Made by a program: the position numbers and the translations under genes. The notes under the pieces were generated by a model. It saw only the letters and a list, made by a program, of their open reading frames with translations. It did not search any database and was not told the origin of the DNA. A stretch of DNA of 38,270 nt from a virus: positions 1-38,270 of the IMG/VR virus record IMGVR_UViG_3300042898_001903. One strand, given 5' to 3'. This document shows positions 4,467 to 38,270 of this stretch, in pieces (the first letter of the stretch is position 1; each line of letters opens with the position of its first letter).

Positions 4467-5942
4467 ATGAGAATATTAAAAAGAGATAGTAGTACACAGG
4501 CTTTTATGCCTAACAAAATACTTAGTAGAATCAAAACCCAATCCAACGGTTTGGAAGTCGATTCAGATGCACTTTTTCAAGAGGTAATACCTTTGATTAG
4601 TGATAACATTACAACAACTGAAATAGATGAGATAATAGCATTTAAAGCAGCTGATAAAATCATTCAACACCCAGACTATTCATTGCTAGGTGGTAGAATT
4701 CTACTTAGCCGTCAATCTAAATTGATTGGTAAAGAATTACAGTCGGTTGATTTAACGTATGACTTTTTTGCTGCAACAACCTTTTTATCCAAATATTCAA
4801 TGAGAGATGATAAAAAAACACCCATTGAATTACCTTCATGTATGTACGAGCGTGTTGCAAAACACTTACATGGTGAAGATGATATTCAAAGAAAAGAACT
4901 TTTAAAAGAGTTGAAATCCAAAAAACTTAATTTTGCGACCCCTATTTATACCAATGCTGGTATTGAAAAAAGAGGCGGCATGATTAGTTGCAATCTTACA
5001 CATTTGGAAGAAGATTCGTTTGAGGGTATTGAAAATACGCTTACAAAGATTGCAGCCGCATCAAAAGAAGGTTCTGGTATTGGGTTGTTGATTGACCCAT
5101 TAAGAAGCAAAGAAAGTGTTGTAGAATCGTTTCAAGGAAACGCTGGGGGTGTGATTAGATTGGCTGATATGGTTCAATCTAAAATGCGTTTCTACAAACA
5201 AGGTTCACGCTCTGGAAGTTGTGCGTTATACCTATCGGTATGGCACAAAGATATCTTTGATTTTTTGGAACTTACTTTACCTATTGGTGATGAACAAATG
5301 AGAAGCCGTGATTTGTTTACTTCAGCAATCATAAATGATTTATTTATGAGAAAACTTGAAGCTGGGGAAGATTGGTACTTGTTCTGTCCTAATGATATTA
5401 AAAAAGCTGGCTTAAAGCCTTTATATGACCTTTGGGGTGATGAATTTGATGTTGAATATGAAAAAGCAGTTGCTTTGGGTATCGGTAAAAAAGTTAACCC
5501 TAAAGAAATTTTTGATTCAATCGTTAAATCACAAGTTGAAAGTGGTCGTCCTTATGTAATGTTCAAAGATAATGCGAACAAACGTAATATGCAAGACAAC
5601 ATCGGCCCAATCAAACAAAGTAATTTGTGTTGTTTAGATGGTGAAACCTTAATTACGATAACTAATCAAGAGGGTGGTATAGAAAAAATAACTATGAAAG
5701 ATGTTATTGATAGATTTAACAATGATAAGACTTTATTTGTATTAAGTCAAGATAACACCTTCAGACCAATATTAGGTGCTATTAAAACTAAAGAAAATTC
5801 TGAAGTTATTGAGGTTGTTGATGATGAAAAAGGTATTAAAATAGTTTGCACACCAGACCATAGAATATTTACAAAAAATAGAGGGTATGTTATGGCTTGT
5901 GATTTATTAGAAGATGATGAATTAGATTTAAACTTTAATTAA
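4467..5942 (+). CDS. nrdA: Ribonucleotide reductase large subunit, N-terminal part fused to a split-intein N-half
   Basis: 491 residues. Residues 1-388 are the NrdA N-extein: an ATP-cone-like domain (about 1-90), then the alpha/beta barrel with the redox cysteine C175 in MISCNLTHL (E. coli C225) and the QSNLC segment whose last Cys (388) equals the thiyl-radical C439 of E. coli. Residue 389 is Cys1 of an intein: block A is CLDGETLI, and block B has the T-P-D-H signature (T74 and H77 of the intein). The intein half is 103 residues, close to the 102-residue N-half of Npu DnaE, and ends in an acidic segment (LLEDDELDL) before TAA. The chain stops before the rest of NrdA, which is encoded from 7153. 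An active subunit needs association and trans-splicing with that product. The ATG at 4467 fits the ATP cone start. Confidence 0.93.
   Translation: MRILKRDSSTQAFMPNKILSRIKTQSNGLEVDSDALFQEVIPLISDNITTTEIDEIIAFKAADKIIQHPDYSLLGGRILLSRQSKLIGKELQSVDLTYDFFAATTFLSKYSMRDDKKTPIELPSCMYERVAKHLHGEDDIQRKELLKELKSKKLNFATPIYTNAGIEKRGGMISCNLTHLEEDSFEGIENTLTKIAAASKEGSGIGLLIDPLRSKESVVESFQGNAGGVIRLADMVQSKMRFYKQGSRSGSCALYLSVWHKDIFDFLELTLPIGDEQMRSRDLFTSAIINDLFMRKLEAGEDWYLFCPNDIKKAGLKPLYDLWGDEFDVEYEKAVALGIGKKVNPKEIFDSIVKSQVESGRPYVMFKDNANKRNMQDNIGPIKQSNLCCLDGETLITITNQEGGIEKITMKDVIDRFNNDKTLFVLSQDNTFRPILGAIKTKENSEVIEVVDDEKGIKIVCTPDHRIFTKNRGYVMACDLLEDDELDLNFN
5631..5939 (+). other. Intein N-half (Hint domain, Cys1 nucleophile)
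   Basis: Codons from TGT 5631 to the stop form a 103-residue Hint N-half. Cys1 follows the extein Cys, giving two adjacent TGT codons at 5628 and 5631. Block A and block B (TPDH) are intact. There is no in-frame endonuclease domain and the frame closes at 5940-5942, which is the usual split point of natural split inteins. Confidence 0.9.
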
Positions 5943-5971
5943 AAAATACAGTATGTTGTGTATTTTTCATA

Positions 5972-7150
5972 ATGTACTGTGTATTTATTAATATGAGATA
6001 TTATGTTTATGTATTATTAGATGATAGAAAGAAAGGTTTTTTTTGTAATAACCATTGTGATTTAATTAATCAACCATTTTATATTGGTAAGGGTGATAGA
6101 AATACTAAAAATAAAAGTGAAAGACATTTAACACACTATAAAGATGTGTTATTAGGTAATAAAAGTAGTGAAATCAATCCATATAAAACTAATATAATAA
6201 AAAAGTTATTTAATTTAGGTTACGAACCAAACTTTCAAATAGTATTTGAAAGTAATGATGAAAATGAAGCTTTTAATGTTGAAAAGGAGTTAATAGAATT
6301 TTATGGTAGGTTTATAGATGGTGGTGTTTTAACTAATATAACAATTGGTGGTTCTGGCGGTGATACATTCACTAATAACCCTAATAAAGAAGAAATAAGA
6401 ATAAAACATAGTTTAAAAACTAAAGGTGAAAATAACCCTATGTATGGTAGACCTTTAGAATTAAACCCATCATATTTATCTAAATTAAGTGGTGAACATT
6501 GGAATAAAGGAAATAAAATGGGTGATGAGCATAAAATTAAGATTAGTCAAATTAATAAATCTAAATCTAAAAAAATTGTGGTTATAGATATTAATAGTTT
6601 AAAAGAAATAGATGTTTTAACTATTCACCAAATTATTGATAAATATAATATTAAAACTAAAAGTTTAGTATATAGATGTATTAAATACGGTGGTAGTCTT
6701 AACGGTTATTATTTTAGATACATTGATTCAGATTTAATTTTAACTAAAACAAAAAGGGATGGTTATATTAAACCTAAAGTTATTAAAAAAAATAAAAATA
6801 TTTATTATAAAACAAATATTAATTCTAATGAAGAGATAAAATTTAATGACGTTAAAGAAGCTAGCAAAGAAACTGGATTCAATGTTAATATTATTAGAAG
6901 AAAGTGTATTAATAATAATACTTATGAAGATATTTTTAGGTATGATAATAAAGATTACACTTTTGATGTTAAAATAGGTAATAATAAAAAAGAAGTAATA
7001 ATGATTGATAAAGACAACCAAGTCATGGTATTTGAGTCATTAAAATCAGCAGCTGATTACATAGACGGTAAAATAACTTCAGTATTAGCAGTATGTAAAG
7101 GTCGAAATAAAACTTATAAAGGGTGTAAATTTGAATATAAAAATAAATAA
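5972..7150 (+). CDS. GIY-YIG homing endonuclease located between the two nrdA/intein halves
   Basis: Up to 392 residues; the internal ATG at 5993 (giving MRYYVYVLL) fits the family start better than 5972. The GIY-YIG nuclease domain spans about residues 8-125: YYVYVLL and FYIGKGD are the two name motifs, RHLTHYKD carries the catalytic-type Arg, VEKELIEFYG the metal-binding Glu, and LTNITIGGSGG closes the domain. NUMOD3-like DNA-binding motifs follow (GENNPMYGR, GEHWNKGNKMGDEHKIK), then helix-turn-helix NUMOD1/IENR-type modules, the last near the C-terminus (SAADYIDGKITSVLAVCKG). The domain order is typical of intron- and intergene-encoded homing enzymes. The gene is more AT-rich than nrdA and lies 2 bases upstream of the second nrdA piece, so translation may be coupled. 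It likely cuts intein-free nrdA alleles to spread the insertion; this is inferred. Confidence 0.9.
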   Translation: MYCVFINMRYYVYVLLDDRKKGFFCNNHCDLINQPFYIGKGDRNTKNKSERHLTHYKDVLLGNKSSEINPYKTNIIKKLFNLGYEPNFQIVFESNDENEAFNVEKELIEFYGRFIDGGVLTNITIGGSGGDTFTNNPNKEEIRIKHSLKTKGENNPMYGRPLELNPSYLSKLSGEHWNKGNKMGDEHKIKISQINKSKSKKIVVIDINSLKEIDVLTIHQIIDKYNIKTKSLVYRCIKYGGSLNGYYFRYIDSDLILTKTKRDGYIKPKVIKKNKNIYYKTNINSNEEIKFNDVKEASKETGFNVNIIRRKCINNNTYEDIFRYDNKDYTFDVKIGNNKKEVIMIDKDNQVMVFESLKSAADYIDGKITSVLAVCKGRNKTYKGCKFEYKNK

Positions 7151-7152
7151 GT

Positions 7153-7251
7153 ATGATAAAAATAAATAAATTAGAACAAAAAATGGATGTGTATGACATC
7201 CAAGTAGATAAAACAGAGAATTTCTACGCTAATAATGTGTTAGTACACAAC
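7153..7251 (+). other. Intein C-half (blocks F and G)
   Basis: 33 codons encoding a separate Hint C-half with its own ATG, ending His-Asn before the +1 Cys codon at 7252-7254. Together with the N-half at 5631-5939 it makes a ~136-residue mini-intein with no endonuclease domain. Confidence 0.9.
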
Positions 7252-8247
7252 TGTGAGATTTTTCAAGCTTCAAAACCTAAATACACACCACAGTGTACCT
7301 TGGGTTCTATGAACTTGGCTGAACACGATACCTTGAAAAGTATTGAGAAAAGCACCAGAGTTATGGTTAGAAGTTTGAACCAAGTCATAAATAAAAATAA
7401 ATGGAGTGATGATTGGAGCAAGGAAGCTGGTCTTGACCAAAGAGCATTGGCTATTGGTGTTGCTGGGTTGGCTGATTTTTTTGCTAAGAAAAAGATTTCT
7501 TTTGAAAGTGAAGAGGCTAAAAAATGGAACAATGATATCTTTGAAACAATGTATAAAGCATCGGTTGAAGAATCAATGAAAATAGCTGAAGAAACTGGTG
7601 AAAATTATCCATCATGGGAAGGTAGCCGTTATTCAAAAGGTGAAACATATATTGAAGGTTGGTCACCAAAACCAGCTGGGGAACCAATCCCACTTTACAA
7701 TAGTTTGTTCTTGGGACTTATGCCTACAGCATCATCTGCTATTTTATTGGGTGTATTTGAATCATTTGAACCAGTGACTTCTAATTTGTTCACCAGAAGA
7801 GTAGGTCAAGGTGAATTTTTGATAATAAACAAGTATTTGGTTAATGATTTGCTTGAAAATGACCTTTGGAATTCAGAAATGATTGATAAAGTCATCAAAA
7901 ACAAGGGAAGTATTCAAAATATTATTGAAATTCCAGAAGACATCAGATTTAGATATAAAGATGTTTGGGAAATTTCTCAAAAAACATTGTTGGATTTGGC
8001 TATTATTAGAAACAAATACGTTGACCAATCACAATCATTAAACGTTTATCATTCTGATGCCAAATACGGTAAGATTGCCAGTGCTTTGATGTATGCATGG
8101 AAAGGTGGGCTTAAAACAGGTGTTTATTATACTAGAACCAAGTCAAAATTGGATGCTAATTCCAAGCTCGCTTCCAATCAGATAACCATGATTGCAAAAC
8201 AAAAACCAAAGGATAGTCAATTTGAATGTTTTGGTTGCACAACCTAA
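7153..8247 (+). CDS. nrdA: Split-intein C-half fused to ribonucleotide reductase large subunit, C-terminal part
   Basis: 364 residues. Residues 1-33 are the intein C-half: the start MIKI and block F VYDIQVDKTENFYA closely resemble the Npu DnaE C-half (36 residues), and block G ends in VLVHN. The cleavage Asn is residue 33 and the +1 nucleophile is Cys34. The C-extein resumes NrdA directly with CEIFQ, which supplies the Glu equivalent to E. coli E441, then redox Cys48 in PQCTLGSMNL (E. coli C462), the radical-transfer tyrosine pair at 325-326 (GVYYTRT) and the C-terminal CxxC pair (359 and 362) that is re-reduced by thioredoxin or glutaredoxin. Extein parts of 388 and 331 residues add up to 719, near the usual NrdA size. 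A terminator follows at 8266. Confidence 0.93.
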   Translation: MIKINKLEQKMDVYDIQVDKTENFYANNVLVHNCEIFQASKPKYTPQCTLGSMNLAEHDTLKSIEKSTRVMVRSLNQVINKNKWSDDWSKEAGLDQRALAIGVAGLADFFAKKKISFESEEAKKWNNDIFETMYKASVEESMKIAEETGENYPSWEGSRYSKGETYIEGWSPKPAGEPIPLYNSLFLGLMPTASSAILLGVFESFEPVTSNLFTRRVGQGEFLIINKYLVNDLLENDLWNSEMIDKVIKNKGSIQNIIEIPEDIRFRYKDVWEISQKTLLDLAIIRNKYVDQSQSLNVYHSDAKYGKIASALMYAWKGGLKTGVYYTRTKSKLDANSKLASNQITMIAKQKPKDSQFECFGCTT

Positions 8248-8347: not shown

Positions 8348-8383
8348 ATGGCAAACGGTAAATACATAAATATAAATTATCCC
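8348..8383 (+). repeat. Diverged copy of the gene 25 start (copy A)
   Basis: 36 bases that align without gaps to 9090-9125, with 28 identical. Five of the six differing codons are synonymous and the sixth is Lys/Arg, so the peptide is kept while the DNA differs. Confidence 0.85.
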
Positions 8384-9097
8384 AAATTAACAATATATGG
8401 TTTGGTTTCAGAGGATGAGCCAAATAATATAAAATATGTTGGTGTAACGAGGCGAAACCCATTATATAGGTTAAGTAATCATATTTACGAAGCTAAAAAT
8501 TTTAGTGATAAAAATAATAAAACAAGGTGGATTTCATCTATAAACTATAAGGTAAAACAAATAATTATAGATGAAATTGATGATGATAATTGTGTTATTT
8601 TTTGGGAGAAATATTGGATTAATCAAATTAAAGCGTGGGGTTTTAATTTAACCAATTCAAACAATGGTGGTGGTGGTTTAAATAAAAGGGATGAATCTTT
8701 TTTAGAATGGTTATCTAATAGAAATAAAGGTAATAAATATAATTTAGGTAAAAAACATACTGAAGAAACAAAAAATAAAATGAGTTTAAAGAAAATTGGT
8801 AAGGTTTCACCTAGAAAAGGGTGTGTTGTTACTGAAAAAACTAAGGAAAAACAATCTTTAGCTAAAATTGGTAAAATTAGTAACGCTAAAGGTTTTAAAC
8901 ATAGTGAAGACACTAAAAACAAAAAAAAGAAAAAAGTAATTGTATTTAATATTGATAAAGTTGTGATGGAATTTAATTCAGTTTCTGAGACAGCTAAATA
9001 TTTTAATGTTAATATTTCTGCGATATCAAAAAGAATAAATAAAAATAAAGAATATAAAGGTTTTATATTCAAAACTAAAATAGAAAACAATGGCTAA
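8348..9097 (+). CDS. GIY-YIG homing endonuclease carrying a copy of the gene 25 start
   Basis: 249 residues. The nuclease domain follows a borrowed leader: residues 1-12 (MANGKYININYP) copy the first 12 residues of the next gene, gp25, with K for R at position 5. The GIY-YIG core then starts at LTIYGLV, with IKYVGVT, the Arg in PLYRLSNHI, the Glu in FWEKYWI, and the closing FNLTNSNNGGGG. Repeated NUMOD3-type segments (KKHTEETKNKMS; FKHSEDTKNK) and a NUMOD1/helix-turn-helix module (SVSETAKYFNVNISAISKRI) form the DNA-binding part. Its stop codon overlaps the gene 25 start by 8 bases (ATGGCTAA). The likely target is gene 25 in phages lacking the insert. It is the first gene after the terminator at 8266, so it leads the late block. 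Confidence 0.9.
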   Translation: MANGKYININYPKLTIYGLVSEDEPNNIKYVGVTRRNPLYRLSNHIYEAKNFSDKNNKTRWISSINYKVKQIIIDEIDDDNCVIFWEKYWINQIKAWGFNLTNSNNGGGGLNKRDESFLEWLSNRNKGNKYNLGKKHTEETKNKMSLKKIGKVSPRKGCVVTEKTKEKQSLAKIGKISNAKGFKHSEDTKNKKKKKVIVFNIDKVVMEFNSVSETAKYFNVNISAISKRINKNKEYKGFIFKTKIENNG

Positions 9098-34796: not shown

Positions 34797-35582
34797 ATGG
34801 CTAAAATAAAAAAATGGATTGGACCATGTTATCTCGAACCAATCGCACATAAATATCATCATAGGGAAACAGGTAAGATATACAAATCTGTTACTACAAC
34901 ACTGTCATCAATTGAACCTCATTTTGATTCAGAAGCTGTTTCTTTGGCCATAACCAGACAACTAGATAAGGTTAAACAAGAACGTTATATTGGTATGAAT
35001 CAACAACAAATTTTGGACTACTGGCAATTTCTTAATGATGAAGCCAACATTTATGGTACAAGGGTTCACGATATTGTTGAGCGTTATTTATTGGCCGATA
35101 AATGGTATTTTCCAGAAGAAACGGAAGAAGGTGCTTTTGAACAAAAAGTAATTGATGGATACAATGCGTTGAAAATTGATGAAGGTACAAATATGTGGCC
35201 AGAACGAATCCTTTTTTCCGAGCAATATCAGTTGGCTGGTACTTCCGACCTTATCATAGACATCAATGATGTTTTCTTTGATGTTGCGGACTATAAAACC
35301 AATCGTGTATTTAATTTCTTCAATCCTTATGGGTTTGAAACGCTTTATAAACCGTTTGACCATTTGCAAGCTTGTCAGTGGTCAATTTATACTTTACAGT
35401 TGAGTGTTTATGCTTATATGTATGAGTTGGAATTTCCAAATCGTAAGTGCCGTCAAATCTATGTTTTGTATTGGGATAAAGAAAAAGAAGCTTTTGAAAA
35501 AATACAAATAATGTATCTCAAAAAAGAAGCCAAGCAACTTATTGAGATGCACCACTATAATATAATGAGAGATAATGGTTAA
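34797..35582 (+). CDS. PD-(D/E)XK superfamily exonuclease (RecB/Cas4-like)
   Basis: 261 residues from ATG 34797. The nuclease motifs of the RecB/lambda-exonuclease-like group are visible in order: the His in YGTRVHDIVERYL (H91), the first Asp in YQLAGTSDLIID (D151), FDVADYKTNR with D165 and K167 (the D-x-K pair), and the Q-x-x-x-Y motif LQLSVYAYMYE. It could process DNA ends in recombination or degrade host DNA. The gene has its own host-type promoter and overlaps the following Mre11-like gene by 8 bases (ATGGTTAA), so the two are probably co-translated and may act together on DNA ends. Confidence 0.85.
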   Translation: MAKIKKWIGPCYLEPIAHKYHHRETGKIYKSVTTTLSSIEPHFDSEAVSLAITRQLDKVKQERYIGMNQQQILDYWQFLNDEANIYGTRVHDIVERYLLADKWYFPEETEEGAFEQKVIDGYNALKIDEGTNMWPERILFSEQYQLAGTSDLIIDINDVFFDVADYKTNRVFNFFNPYGFETLYKPFDHLQACQWSIYTLQLSVYAYMYELEFPNRKCRQIYVLYWDKEKEAFEKIQIMYLKKEAKQLIEMHHYNIMRDNG

Positions 35583-36387
35583 AAAAATAATACATACAGC
35601 AGATATACACATCAGAACATTCAGACTTCATGATGAATATGAAGATGTTTTTAGGACTCTTATAAAAGACGTTAAAGAGTTGGTAGAGGGTTATGATAGA
35701 GATGAAATAAGAATCGTAATTGCTGGTGATTTGGTTCACCAAAAGATTATTATATCAAATGAACAACTTATATTAGGTACATGGTTCCTAAGAAGCTTGG
35801 AACAAATAGCCCCAGTAGTTATTATAGCTGGTAATCATGACCTGTTGGAGAACAACAAAGACCGTATGGACAGCATTACTCCAATGGTTCAATTTTTACC
35901 AGACGAAAATATCAATTACTTTAAAGAAAGCAAATGTTATTTGGATGATAATATTGTATGGTGTGTTTATTCTATTTTTGAAGATAATCAAAGACCAGAC
36001 ATTGAAGCTGCAAAGGTTGAATTTGGGCCAGACAAGACATATATCGGGTTATTCCACGCACCACTAATCAACGCTAAAACAGATATCGGTTATGAAATTG
36101 ACCACGGTGCTGAATTGGATATTTTTGAAGGTTGTGATATGGTAATGCTTGGTGATATTCACAAGCGTCAATTCTTCAACCACAAAGGCATACATGTTGC
36201 GTACCCTTCAAGTCTTATTCAACAAAATTTTGGTGAGAACGTAAGCAAACATGGATTTCTTATGTGGGACATAGAAAGCAAAACATTTACAGAACATGAC
36301 GTAGAAAATAAACATCCGTTCTATCAATTTAAAATAAAGTCGCTAGAAGACCTAGAGACTGGTTCAGAAAAAATAACAAACAACTAA
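35575..36387 (+). CDS. Mre11/SbcD/gp47-like nuclease domain, lacking the usual C-terminal domain
   Basis: 270 residues; T4 gp47 has 339 and E. coli SbcD 400. The calcineurin-like phosphoesterase motifs are intact: HTADIHIR (D10, H12), IAGDLVH (D52), IAGNHDLLENN (N87, H88), LFHAPL, and GDIHKRQF. The nuclease domain ends with HPFYQFKIKSLEDLETGS and the protein stops 9 residues later. The 'capping' C-terminal domain that binds the Rad50 ATPase is absent here; sequence resembling it is found instead at the start of the ATPase gene at 37661. The stop (36385-36387) lies within the first copy of a 20-bp tandem repeat. Together with the Rad50-like protein it would act in DNA end processing for recombination-dependent replication, as gp46/gp47 does. 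Confidence 0.85.
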   Translation: MVKKIIHTADIHIRTFRLHDEYEDVFRTLIKDVKELVEGYDRDEIRIVIAGDLVHQKIIISNEQLILGTWFLRSLEQIAPVVIIAGNHDLLENNKDRMDSITPMVQFLPDENINYFKESKCYLDDNIVWCVYSIFEDNQRPDIEAAKVEFGPDKTYIGLFHAPLINAKTDIGYEIDHGAELDIFEGCDMVMLGDIHKRQFFNHKGIHVAYPSSLIQQNFGENVSKHGFLMWDIESKTFTEHDVENKHPFYQFKIKSLEDLETGSEKITNN

Positions 36388-36410
36388 TAAAAATAACAAA
36401 CAACTAATAA
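36371..36410 (+). repeat. Tandem 20-bp repeat at the gp47 break point
   Basis: Two exact head-to-tail copies of AAATAACAAACAACTAATAA. Copy 1 covers the gene's last codons and stop; copy 2 ends 2 bases before the ATG at 36413. The second copy repeats the stop signal and the A-rich leader. Such short duplications often mark recombination or insertion edges. Confidence 0.9.
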
Positions 36411-36412
36411 AA

Positions 36413-37042
36413 ATGAAAAATAGATTTAAACTAATTTTATGTGATTTTTCTGAGGAGTTATGTGCGGAATGGAGAATAGCGTTTGCTGAATTTCCAGAAG
36501 TAGAAATAATTTATGGAATATTTGAACACATTGATTTTGATTGTATAAATAGTCCAGCTAACTCTTTTGGGCTTATGGATGGTGGTATTGATGAAGCTAT
36601 CACAATGTACTTTGGTCAACAAATGATGGATAGAGTTCAAGAAATGATACTAGATAAGTACGCTGGTGAACAACCAGTTGGGACATCCGAAATCGTAAGA
36701 GGTACAGCTAATATTAATGATGATAGAATCAGATATGTTGCCCATACACCAACAATGATTATACCAGAATTAATAACCAATACCAATAACGTTTATATGG
36801 CAATGAAAGCTATGTTACTGGCGGTTGAAACACATAATAAAAACAATGAAGGTAGCCCCGAAAAGTTTAGAATAAGAACATTAGTTTGTTCTGGATTGGG
36901 TACTGGTGCTGGTAGAGTACCGTTTAAAAAAGCAGCTATTGACATGGCCAAAGCTTATAGGGTGTTTAAAAATAGACCGAAAACCATATCATGGCCATTT
37001 GCTACAATTAGATATCAATACATAAAAGGTAATAACGTATAA
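36413..37042 (+). CDS. Macrodomain (ADP-ribose-binding) protein
   Basis: 209 residues forming one macrodomain. Visible motifs: CINSPANSFGLMDGGID (about 44-60; the N-S-P-A-N-S-x-G-x-M-x-G-G loop that holds ADP-ribose), FGQQMMDRVQ, the VGTSEIVRGTANI strand, IRYVAHTPTM, and the second binding loop CSGLGTGAGRV (about 163-173) followed by FKKAAIDMAKAY. Macrodomains bind or hydrolyse ADP-ribose, ADP-ribosyl groups or related NAD metabolites. In a phage it could reverse host ADP-ribosylation, neutralise an NAD-based defence signal, or handle NAD products during infection; none is shown by the sequence. The gene lies inside the gp47/gp46 region, just after the 20-bp tandem repeat. Confidence 0.85.
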   Translation: MKNRFKLILCDFSEELCAEWRIAFAEFPEVEIIYGIFEHIDFDCINSPANSFGLMDGGIDEAITMYFGQQMMDRVQEMILDKYAGEQPVGTSEIVRGTANINDDRIRYVAHTPTMIIPELITNTNNVYMAMKAMLLAVETHNKNNEGSPEKFRIRTLVCSGLGTGAGRVPFKKAAIDMAKAYRVFKNRPKTISWPFATIRYQYIKGNNV

Positions 37043-37057
37043 AAAAATAACAAATTT

Positions 37058-37291
37058 ATGACACTTGCAGAATTAAAAGAATTCATCAATAAGCTCCCAC
37101 AAGACATTGATGACTATATTGTGGTAAATGGTGAATACGGTTTTTTAGACCCTAATGATGAAAATAGTCTTGTTTATCGTGCTGATAAACCTGTGCTTAT
37201 GATTACAGTTGATAAAAATGATAAAGAGATTTTATTATTGCATCAAACACGTGAAGATGTTAAAACAATTATGAATGATGGAAATTCCTAA
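37058..37291 (+). CDS. Small protein of unknown function in the gp47-gp46 gap
   Basis: 77 residues. The sequence has the form 'MTLAELKEFINKLPQDIDDY', a strand (IVVNGEYGFLDPNDENSLVYR), then VLMITVDKNDKEILLLHQT. It looks like a small alpha/beta protein with no signal peptide or membrane segment. The pattern is like small conserved phage proteins with a helix then 'D-x-P/D' turn, but I recognise no family. It overlaps the next gene by 17 bases, and both are probably co-translated. Confidence 0.65.
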   Translation: MTLAELKEFINKLPQDIDDYIVVNGEYGFLDPNDENSLVYRADKPVLMITVDKNDKEILLLHQTREDVKTIMNDGNS

Positions 37292-37661
37292 TGATTTAAA
37301 AGATGAAATTTGGGATTATTGTCGTGCCAACAATATAACCAATATTGATGAGTTTACGTTAAAGCTCTTAAAACAAGGGTTTACAAGCGAAAAATTTGGG
37401 TCGACACCTATGATTAAAACCATAGAAAAAGAGGTTGAGAAAATAGTAGAAGTGGAAGTTGAAAAGATAGTTGAAAAGATAGTTGAAGTACCAGTAAACA
37501 TGGTAGATACAGAGCTATCTGACAAATACACAGAACTCATAAAAAGTTATGAAAGTTTACAAAGTGAAGTTGAAAAATTAAAAGTTGAAAACGTAAGAAT
37601 AACAAAAGAACTGGGTGTTGAAACACAAAAAAATAAAAAAGACATATACGGAGAAGGATAA
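37275..37661 (+). CDS. Small coiled-coil protein with VEKIVE repeats
   Basis: 128 residues, starting within the end of the preceding gene. The N-terminal ~45 residues are a small helical domain (IPNDLKDEIWDYCRANNITN, then FTLKLLKQGFTSEKFG), followed by a charged, repeated segment (EKEVEKIVEVEVEKIVEKIV) and a long helix (ELIKSYESLQSEVEKLKVEN) that is probably a coiled coil. The repeated part is encoded by a 12-bp tandem duplication (37458-37487). No family is recognised. Its position directly before the Rad50-like ATPase, with a TAATG overlap, suggests that it may be an accessory factor for that complex; this is inference only. Confidence 0.68.
   Translation: MMEIPNDLKDEIWDYCRANNITNIDEFTLKLLKQGFTSEKFGSTPMIKTIEKEVEKIVEVEVEKIVEKIVEVPVNMVDTELSDKYTELIKSYESLQSEVEKLKVENVRITKELGVETQKNKKDIYGEG
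37458..37487 (+). repeat. 12-bp tandem repeat within the coiled-coil gene
   Basis: Two exact copies of GTTGAAAAGATA and a partial third copy (GTTGAA), encoding VEKI VEKI VE. Copy-number change would keep the frame and only alter coiled-coil length by four residues. Confidence 0.8.
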
Positions 37662-38270
37662 TGCAAGACACACTTACAAAAATACAAATATCACCTTACG
37701 CAAAGGTTAAAGTGGTTTGGGATGACAGACCAGAAAATTATTCCAAAGAAGCCAAGAACAAAGTTCGTAACTATTTTGCAAATAAGTATGGTGTGAACAA
37801 AAATAACATTACCGTTGTTTATCGTCCAGTAAAATACAATGATAAAGGAGATGCTATTGAAATTTCTGGTGCCAACATAGAAAACATCATGGATGTTAAC
37901 TATCAACGTGCTTTGATGAAGGAAGTAATCGCTAGAGATAACAAAGTTGTTGATTTCAATAGAATCCTTGCGTTGGATGATAAAGTCAACGGTGAATTAA
38001 ATGTTGACCTTACTCAATCACAACACAAAAGCTGGTCAGTTAAATGGATAATGATTGACAATTTCTTGTCATTCGGTGAAAACAATTACGTTCCGTTTAG
38101 CAAACTTAAAGGTTTGACGGTGGTAAACTCAATCCCAAGCAACACTGGTGGTAAAACGTCATTGTGTATAGATTCATTAAAGTTCTTATTACATGGTACA
38201 ACTACCAAGACTGATAAAAACGAACAAATATTTAATTCATTTAGCGGAAAGAACGAATTGGTTGTTCGTG
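37661..38270 (+). CDS. Rad50/SbcC/gp46-like ATPase with an N-terminal Mre11-type domain (runs off window)
   Basis: At least 203 residues, open to the end of the window. Start: ATG 37661 in a TAATG overlap, preceded by AGAAGG, one of the few Shine-Dalgarno-like sequences here. Residues about 5-112 resemble the C-terminal domain of gp47/Mre11: ISPYAKVKVVWDDRPE, a charged helix (KEAKNKVRNYF), NITVVYRPVKY, then a long helix with NYQRALMKEVIARD; T4 gp47 has the same order (VRVIV..., helix, strand, helix with LMEEYI). From residue ~126 the ABC-type ATPase starts (WIMIDNFLSFGENN), with a Walker A-like PSNTGGKTS (159-167) where the usual first Gly is Pro. The rest (Q-loop, coiled coil, signature, Walker B) is outside the window. 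It would act with the nuclease at 35575 in DNA end processing. Confidence 0.85.
   Translation, partial: MQDTLTKIQISPYAKVKVVWDDRPENYSKEAKNKVRNYFANKYGVNKNNITVVYRPVKYNDKGDAIEISGANIENIMDVNYQRALMKEVIARDNKVVDFNRILALDDKVNGELNVDLTQSQHKSWSVKWIMIDNFLSFGENNYVPFSKLKGLTVVNSIPSNTGGKTSLCIDSLKFLLHGTTTKTDKNEQIFNSFSGKNELVVR

Follow-up and report, generated by a model that had tools for sequence, protein, structure and literature searches.

The window, by which we mean the whole stretch of DNA analysed here, is a 38,270-base IMG/VR virus record whose contig end falls inside a Rad50-like gene. Read rightwards along the plus strand, it carries genes for a RuvC-like resolvase, a primase and, beyond a reverse-strand ORF, a PD-(D/E)XK exonuclease, an Mre11-type nuclease, a macro-domain protein, orf77, orf128, and a Rad50-type ATPase, of which it contains the first 203 codons. 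The gene set is predicted to encode a phage Mre11-Rad50 end-processing complex of the SbcCD, gp47-gp46 type. The features of its right end are as follows.

35575..36387 (stop included in the end coordinate), plus strand: Mre11/SbcD-type nuclease with the phosphoesterase domain only, 270 aa, assigned by Pfam, PHROG, and motifs.
36313..36384, plus strand: C-terminus of the nuclease, a tail of ~24 residues, HPFYQFKIKSLEDLETGSEKITNN, aligned with the strand from which fused and T4-type proteins continue into their C-terminal domain.
36413..37042, plus strand: macro-domain protein, 209 aa, present in 3/56 related loci; a late extra in the gap.
37058..37291, plus strand: orf77, with no assigned function, present in 40/56 related loci.
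37275..37661, plus strand: orf128, with an N-terminal domain, VEKIVEV repeats/coiled coil, and a conserved C-terminal K-D-I/L-Y-G-E; the near-constant occupant of the gap.
37661..38270, plus strand: Rad50/SbcC-type ATPase gene, N-terminal 203 residues only, running off the contig; PHROG SbcC-like match.
37700..38005, plus strand: Mre11 C-terminal domain (capping strands and helix-loop-helix) at the N-terminus of the ATPase, residues ~14–115, predicted order β-α-β-(β)-α-α, from profile alignments and AF2 models.

Based on profile searches, the window nuclease matches the Pfam family Metallophos (PF00149, E 1e-9) and an SbcD-like PHROG (E 2e-21). The phosphoesterase motifs are all present (ADIH, GDLVH, GNHD, GLFH, and GDIH) and conform to the pattern DxH, GDxx[DH], GNHD, H, G[HD]xH of an Mre11/SbcD nuclease. 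The protein ends at residue 270, within the 262–276 aa of most intact relatives, and is closed by a conserved tail, FYQFKIKSLEDLE...; the capping and Rad50-binding (helix-loop-helix) domain is missing from this chain and sits on the ATPase. The first-pass annotation had described an Mre11-like gene that stops after its phosphoesterase domain, and the 270-residue ORF with its full motif set bears this out. In the alignment, the tail pattern Y-x-F-x-I-x-S is kept in the clade with this split layout, where its conservation is higher than that of the equivalent segment in fused proteins, in which nuclease and ATPase form a single chain.

A relative with 93% identity, L006, has the whole ATPase (786 aa), and the full-length ATPases of relatives have ~780–790 aa. 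In the alignment headed by L006, the zinc-hook residues C470/C473, the Walker B residues D727-E728, and the S-G-x-E signature are invariant, and GGKT and H760 (H-loop) are also present. Moreover, the ATPase part of the 786-aa L006 model matches Rad50 7zr1 (E 1e-21). Alignment and model together contain the complete Rad50/SbcC set (Walker A, zinc hook CxxC, signature, Walker B, H-loop, and two lobes with a coiled coil), of which the window holds only the Walker A part. In the window protein, this region, PSNTGGKTS, occupies residues 159–167, and every split member has Pro in place of the first Walker A Gly. Furthermore, a helix of the L006 model ends at 113 and the first ATPase strand starts at 124, which leaves a linker of ~ten residues. 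This length agrees with the 9–12 residues computed for the Mre11-Rad50 link from the Thermotoga complex (PMC3175470), so that the helices are able to occupy the coiled-coil root in cis, a placement suggested earlier for the fused proteins.

The PHROG SbcC-like match to the window ATPase begins only at residue 96. Residues ~10–115 align colinearly with the nuclease-ATPase junction segment of fused relatives, with an HMM-HMM E of 7.3e-11 for the larger alignments and of 9.5e-7 when three fused proteins were compared; the split-fused junction score is 61.5, against 22.7 for the best of 200 column-shuffled control profiles. The fused N-terminal profile in turn aligns with a T4-type gp47 profile made from nine gp47-type proteins of T4, Twort, Kuttervirus, and other types (15–353 against 2–318, E 8.7e-21). 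Similarly, it aligns with Thermotoga maritima Mre11 (3qg5; 144–343 against 166–366), spanning the C-terminal part including the two-helix stretch. The fused C-terminal segment alone matches that of gp47 at E 0.02, a score reached by none of 200 shuffles. Compared directly, the split-family domain matches the gp47 C-terminal domain weakly (E 0.1), and an HMM-HMM comparison with full-length T4-type gp47 gave no match (E 0.25). As judged from these profiles, the chain of homology from the window through the fused proteins to the canonical ones is good, whereas the direct step from window to canonical is not.

The AF2 model of the domain (pLDDT 73) shows a strand at 16–22, a helix at 29–43, a strand at 50–59, and helices at 79–92 and 99–112, and the identical order of elements appears in the AF2 model of the L006 ATPase (pLDDT 84). 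This order agrees with that given in the first-pass annotation, which had matched the ~110 N-terminal residues to the C-terminal domain of T4 gp47; the match holds by way of the fused proteins and in the shared β-α-β-α-α order, but only weakly as a direct sequence match. Foldseek and VIA searches with the domain model alone returned generic β-α-β folds of the 4-oxalocrotonate tautomerase type, with no Mre11 among the matches listed. Against the PDB, phmmer gave no meaningful match for the window ATPase piece, and T4 gp47 gave no match there. The homology of the junction segment confirms the annotated observation and supports the reading of the N-terminal ATPase segment as the Mre11 C-terminal domain, away from its nuclease.

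To place the window among its relatives, IMG/VR was scanned with each piece, giving 51 loci for the ATPase and 63 for the nuclease; both genes occur in the split layout at 56 distinct loci, so that it is no local peculiarity of the window. At every one of these, the nuclease lies upstream of the ATPase, close by and in the same orientation, and the two are separate ORFs with matches at least 271 bases apart, not a single polypeptide of the fused R555 type. A complete gp47 beside the split pair, proposed earlier as a check, was found on none of 12 contigs of 197–380 kb, one of which (L094) carries a second locus that is also split. The split layout is also present on a Prochlorococcus single-cell assembly, the sole locus in a GTDB genome search with the domain-ATPase alignment, which points to cyanobacteria as hosts of one member or more.

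The Rad50-like gene had been placed three genes after the nuclease, which is true of the window, but most relatives have one or two genes between the pair. In one of two earlier scenarios, the intervening stretch (36388–37660) was an inserted cassette that split the gene; this does not hold for the whole of it, the rare macro-domain gene not being part, and its core is orf128. By BLAST, orf128 is found in 52 of the 56 loci, with more distant forms in at least two of the other four, and its N-terminal domain occurs in none of the fused loci examined. In the window, the orf128 tail carries the GGAG ribosome-binding site for the ATPase. A role of the tail DIYGE as a mere ribosome-binding site was rejected, as the peptide is kept where the ATPase start is 240–1500 bases further on; judging from these relatives, the tail is conserved as protein, and the ribosome-binding site is an extra in the window. 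The nuclease and ATPase genes are both under purifying selection, with dN/dS of 0.09 and 0.07 for the two genes in the closest pair (window and L006) and 0.03–0.13 wherever it is computable.

Nuclease and ATPase share one chain in Microcystis phage Mel-JY01 (WWT39521.1, 1066 aa), LR756501 (1202 aa), and the Tenacibaculum phages pT24 (1310 aa) and PTm1 (1318 aa), which were reached via tblastn and the records found by it; ~28 further fused genes were taken from IMG/VR contigs. A search for a gp47-gp46 fusion in related phages had been recommended in the first-pass annotation. Trees were built for the nuclease (39 rows), the ATPase lobes (38), and the two joined (38). Split and fused proteins form one clade against ordinary two-gene (T4/Twort-type) systems, with support of 100/99 and 100/100, R555 being absent from the trees; the window system shares a common ancestry with the fused phage proteins. 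Within that clade, the split members form one clade and the fused members two groups, and fused proteins of the LR756501/pT24 type group with the split clade in the joint tree (support 99/98). The fused proteins are monophyletic in 1%, 5%, and 0% of the bootstrap trees for the nuclease, the ATPase, and the two joined, respectively, and AU tests do not reject this monophyly (p 0.077–0.082). Collectively, the trees and the fused relatives favour, but do not prove, fusion first and fission second, as in the earlier scenario of a fused ancestor that was later split.

In the alignments, the last nuclease residues, HPFYQFKIKSLEDLE..., fall on the strand from which the fused, T4-type, and Thermotoga proteins continue into their C-terminal domain, and the ATPase piece begins just ahead of the next strand, KVKVVW. 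In Mre11 structures, these two adjacent strands are part of the capping sheet. The border probably lies inside the capping sheet and not cleanly between domains. The nuclease seems to have kept the first capping strand at the break, and strand completion is therefore the probable way in which the two chains meet again. In P. furiosus, the capping domain has several linkers to the nuclease and moves during the ATP cycle (PMC8824468).

The overall explanation that we prefer, with a probability of roughly 75%, is fusion followed by fission at a new border, with the C-terminal domain left on the ATPase and the nuclease docking non-covalently. An ordinary two-gene system of gp47 and gp46 would have given rise to a single-chain nuclease-CTD-ATPase protein, and the fused gene would later have been broken where nuclease and C-terminal domain meet, or slightly inside that border, orf128 now occupying the gap. 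The resulting ATPase subunit would bear the Rad50-binding helices of Mre11 in cis, on a linker of ~ten residues, and the nuclease subunit would be reduced to the phosphoesterase and a short, conserved strand at its C-terminus. Of this account, the homology of the domain, the layout, its conservation, and the purifying selection are observed, the order of events is what the trees favour, and the docking and the functioning of the complex are inferred. The helix-loop-helix most likely sits on the coiled-coil root as in canonical complexes, and the capping part would point to the nuclease, which may dock there without a covalent link as its tail strand completes the capping sheet. An adaptor held permanently on the ATPase and a nuclease left free had been proposed; the fixed adaptor stands, whereas the conserved nuclease tail speaks for re-association. 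More tentatively, and with less than even odds, the nuclease could be a detachable cartridge held only by capping-sheet strand completion after fusion and fission, possibly with orf128 as a third, bridging subunit. If so, nuclease loading could be regulated apart from DNA-end sensing.

The present arrangement could also have arisen by direct relocation, in which a two-gene system transferred the C-terminal domain out of its nuclease gene and into its ATPase gene and the single-chain forms were joined later. Although the survival of fused monophyly in the AU test (p ~0.08) leaves room for such a history, it is unlikely, given that split members lie inside the fused ones in the nuclease, ATPase, and joint trees and that relocation requires excision and insertion at precise domain borders, whereas fusion and fission need just one new break. 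The other departure from the preferred reading concerns function: the nuclease may be uncoupled, acting by itself or with different phage proteins as partners, and the ATPase may retain the domain for structural reasons only. The covalent link is indeed absent, and nuclease and ATPase are two genes. However, the two genes stay close, in one orientation and with the nuclease upstream, in 56/56 loci, and the nuclease tail is better conserved than its fused counterpart, which makes uncoupling quite improbable.

The identity of the domain can be doubted as well, in that the N-terminal ~115 residues might be a phage-specific DNA- or partner-binding ATPase domain that lies between nuclease and ATPase of the fused proteins by chance only. 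Consistent with this, the fold search with the domain alone found only tautomerase-like matches, and the split-family comparison with the T4 domain alone stayed at E 0.1. Against it, the fused profile runs through the domain region into T4-type gp47 and Thermotoga Mre11, the fused domain scores above all 200 shuffles against the T4 domain, the ATPase segment and the Mre11 domain have their order of strands and helices in common, and the nuclease is without any other such domain; we regard a chance position as very improbable. Finally, an assembly error or pseudogenes, which the stop of the window contig within the ATPase might suggest, are already refuted by the 56 distinct loci, the full-length ATPases, and a dN/dS far under 1.

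Single-chain Mre11-Rad50 proteins have been described since 2011, including one from a phage (PMC3175470). Among these fused proteins is Mimivirus R555, whose nuclease residues are GDxxH for GDxxD and GDIH for GHxH (PMC3175470); the window nuclease has the same two motif departures, with GDLVH and GDIH. Compared with the fused SbcDC proteins (R555, Mel-JY01, pT24, PTm1, and LR756501), the window system has the same domain order of nuclease, C-terminal domain, and ATPase, and the ~ten-residue link from the helix-loop-helix to the ATPase is alike. In contrast, its chain is interrupted immediately ahead of the second C-terminal-domain strand, and orf128 and other genes lie in the gap. The T4 gp47/gp46 and SbcD/SbcC systems likewise have their nuclease and Rad50-type ATPase genes close together, and T4 also has small ORFs between the two (46.1 and 46.2); however, the C-terminal domain is on the nuclease in T4 and on the ATPase in the window. 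Structures of Rad50 with the Rad50-binding part of Mre11 (e.g., PDB 3QKU and 5DA9) resemble the window in joining an ATPase to the binding part without a nuclease, but these are truncated laboratory constructs, whereas the window arrangement is natural and includes the capping strands.

Known phage genes in pieces include the split nrdA of Aeh1 and split gene 43 (PMC2988022). Similarly to the window, a contiguous enzyme gene became two polypeptides that need reassembly. In those cases, the split mostly goes with insertion of a homing endonuclease into a single gene, whereas the window break changes the subunit that owns a domain, and no endonuclease is present at the nuclease/ATPase break in the window. 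In the literature, with preprints and most subscription papers outside the coverage, we found no description of a separate nuclease with the Rad50-binding domain on the ATPase; this split arrangement thus appears to be new, and fused Mre11-Rad50 and phage genes in pieces were already known. How the Rad50 ATP cycle opens and shuts the Mre11 nuclease is still debated, and capping-domain motion is central to this debate. As separate natural chains, the nuclease and the capping/Rad50-binding part could be combined, left out, or mutated separately, with no need for artificial cuts. The system would also provide a clear case of a domain that changes its owner protein via fusion and then fission elsewhere.

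Trans-splicing of nuclease and ATPase by a split intein was considered and rejected, as there are no intein halves at this break. Further interruptions occur in relatives, in which an intein, atypically split or contiguous, lies exactly in the ATPase P-loop and the nuclease is broken again just after GDIH, usually with a homing endonuclease; for introns at these further breaks, there was no Rfam match. The NrdA of the window has an interruption of its own, made up of a split intein and a GIY-YIG endonuclease.

In the split loci, which encode the Mre11-type nuclease separately from a Rad50-type ATPase that carries the Mre11 C-terminal domain at its N-terminus, the Walker A motif of the ATPase reads P-x-N-x-G-G-K-T, both in the window (38135-38161) and in all aligned split relatives. 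The first Walker A glycine is replaced by an invariant proline (20/20 aligned split members), whereas the fused relatives, with all domains on a single chain, mostly keep Gly or Ala at this position. Additionally, the P-loop of some relatives' ATPases contains an intein, inserted directly behind ...NQGGK. It is atypically split in loci L046, L052, L056, L081, and L105, into an N-intein of ~29 residues and a C-intein of ~120 residues, in most cases with an endonuclease ORF of ~338 aa between them; L038 and L108 carry a contiguous mini-intein of ~145 residues.

The orf128 family, which usually occupies the gap between the two genes (window 37275-37661), comprises coiled-coil proteins with VEKIVEV repeats. 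Their conserved C-terminus, [KN]-[DN]-[ILF]-Y-G-E, is retained even when the ATPase start lies far downstream.

An identical split layout occurs in a Prochlorococcus single-cell genome assembly (L171, QCKH01000004.1), a hint of a cyanobacterial host. A second, more distant split locus, L168, lies on the 380 kb contig of L094 and has its own orf128-like and sigma-factor-like genes; this pairing reflects either a true duplication or a mis-joined assembly.

In L034, L038, L041, L105, L108, L110, L114, L115, and L118, the nuclease has a second break, immediately behind the phosphoesterase motif GDIH; the fused-type L004 and L149 are also broken at this site. Conserved tails (...EEDLExYxKMGWEID and MKKIKIKKIIP...) flank this break, and most such loci contain a TnsA/VSR-like endonuclease ORF within it; L108, L118, and L149 have no intervening endonuclease ORF. 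In L026, the same ~33-residue insertion is present in an unsplit nuclease.

Elsewhere in the window, the ribonucleotide reductase large subunit NrdA is fractured by a split intein (4467-8247):
NrdA first piece: 389 NrdA residues, then an N-intein of ~102 residues starting CLDGETLIT...
5972-7150: GIY-YIG homing endonuclease, between the two NrdA pieces
NrdA second piece: C-intein of 33 residues (...FYANNVLVHN|C), then the remaining NrdA
8348-9097: second GIY-YIG endonuclease, downstream of the second piece
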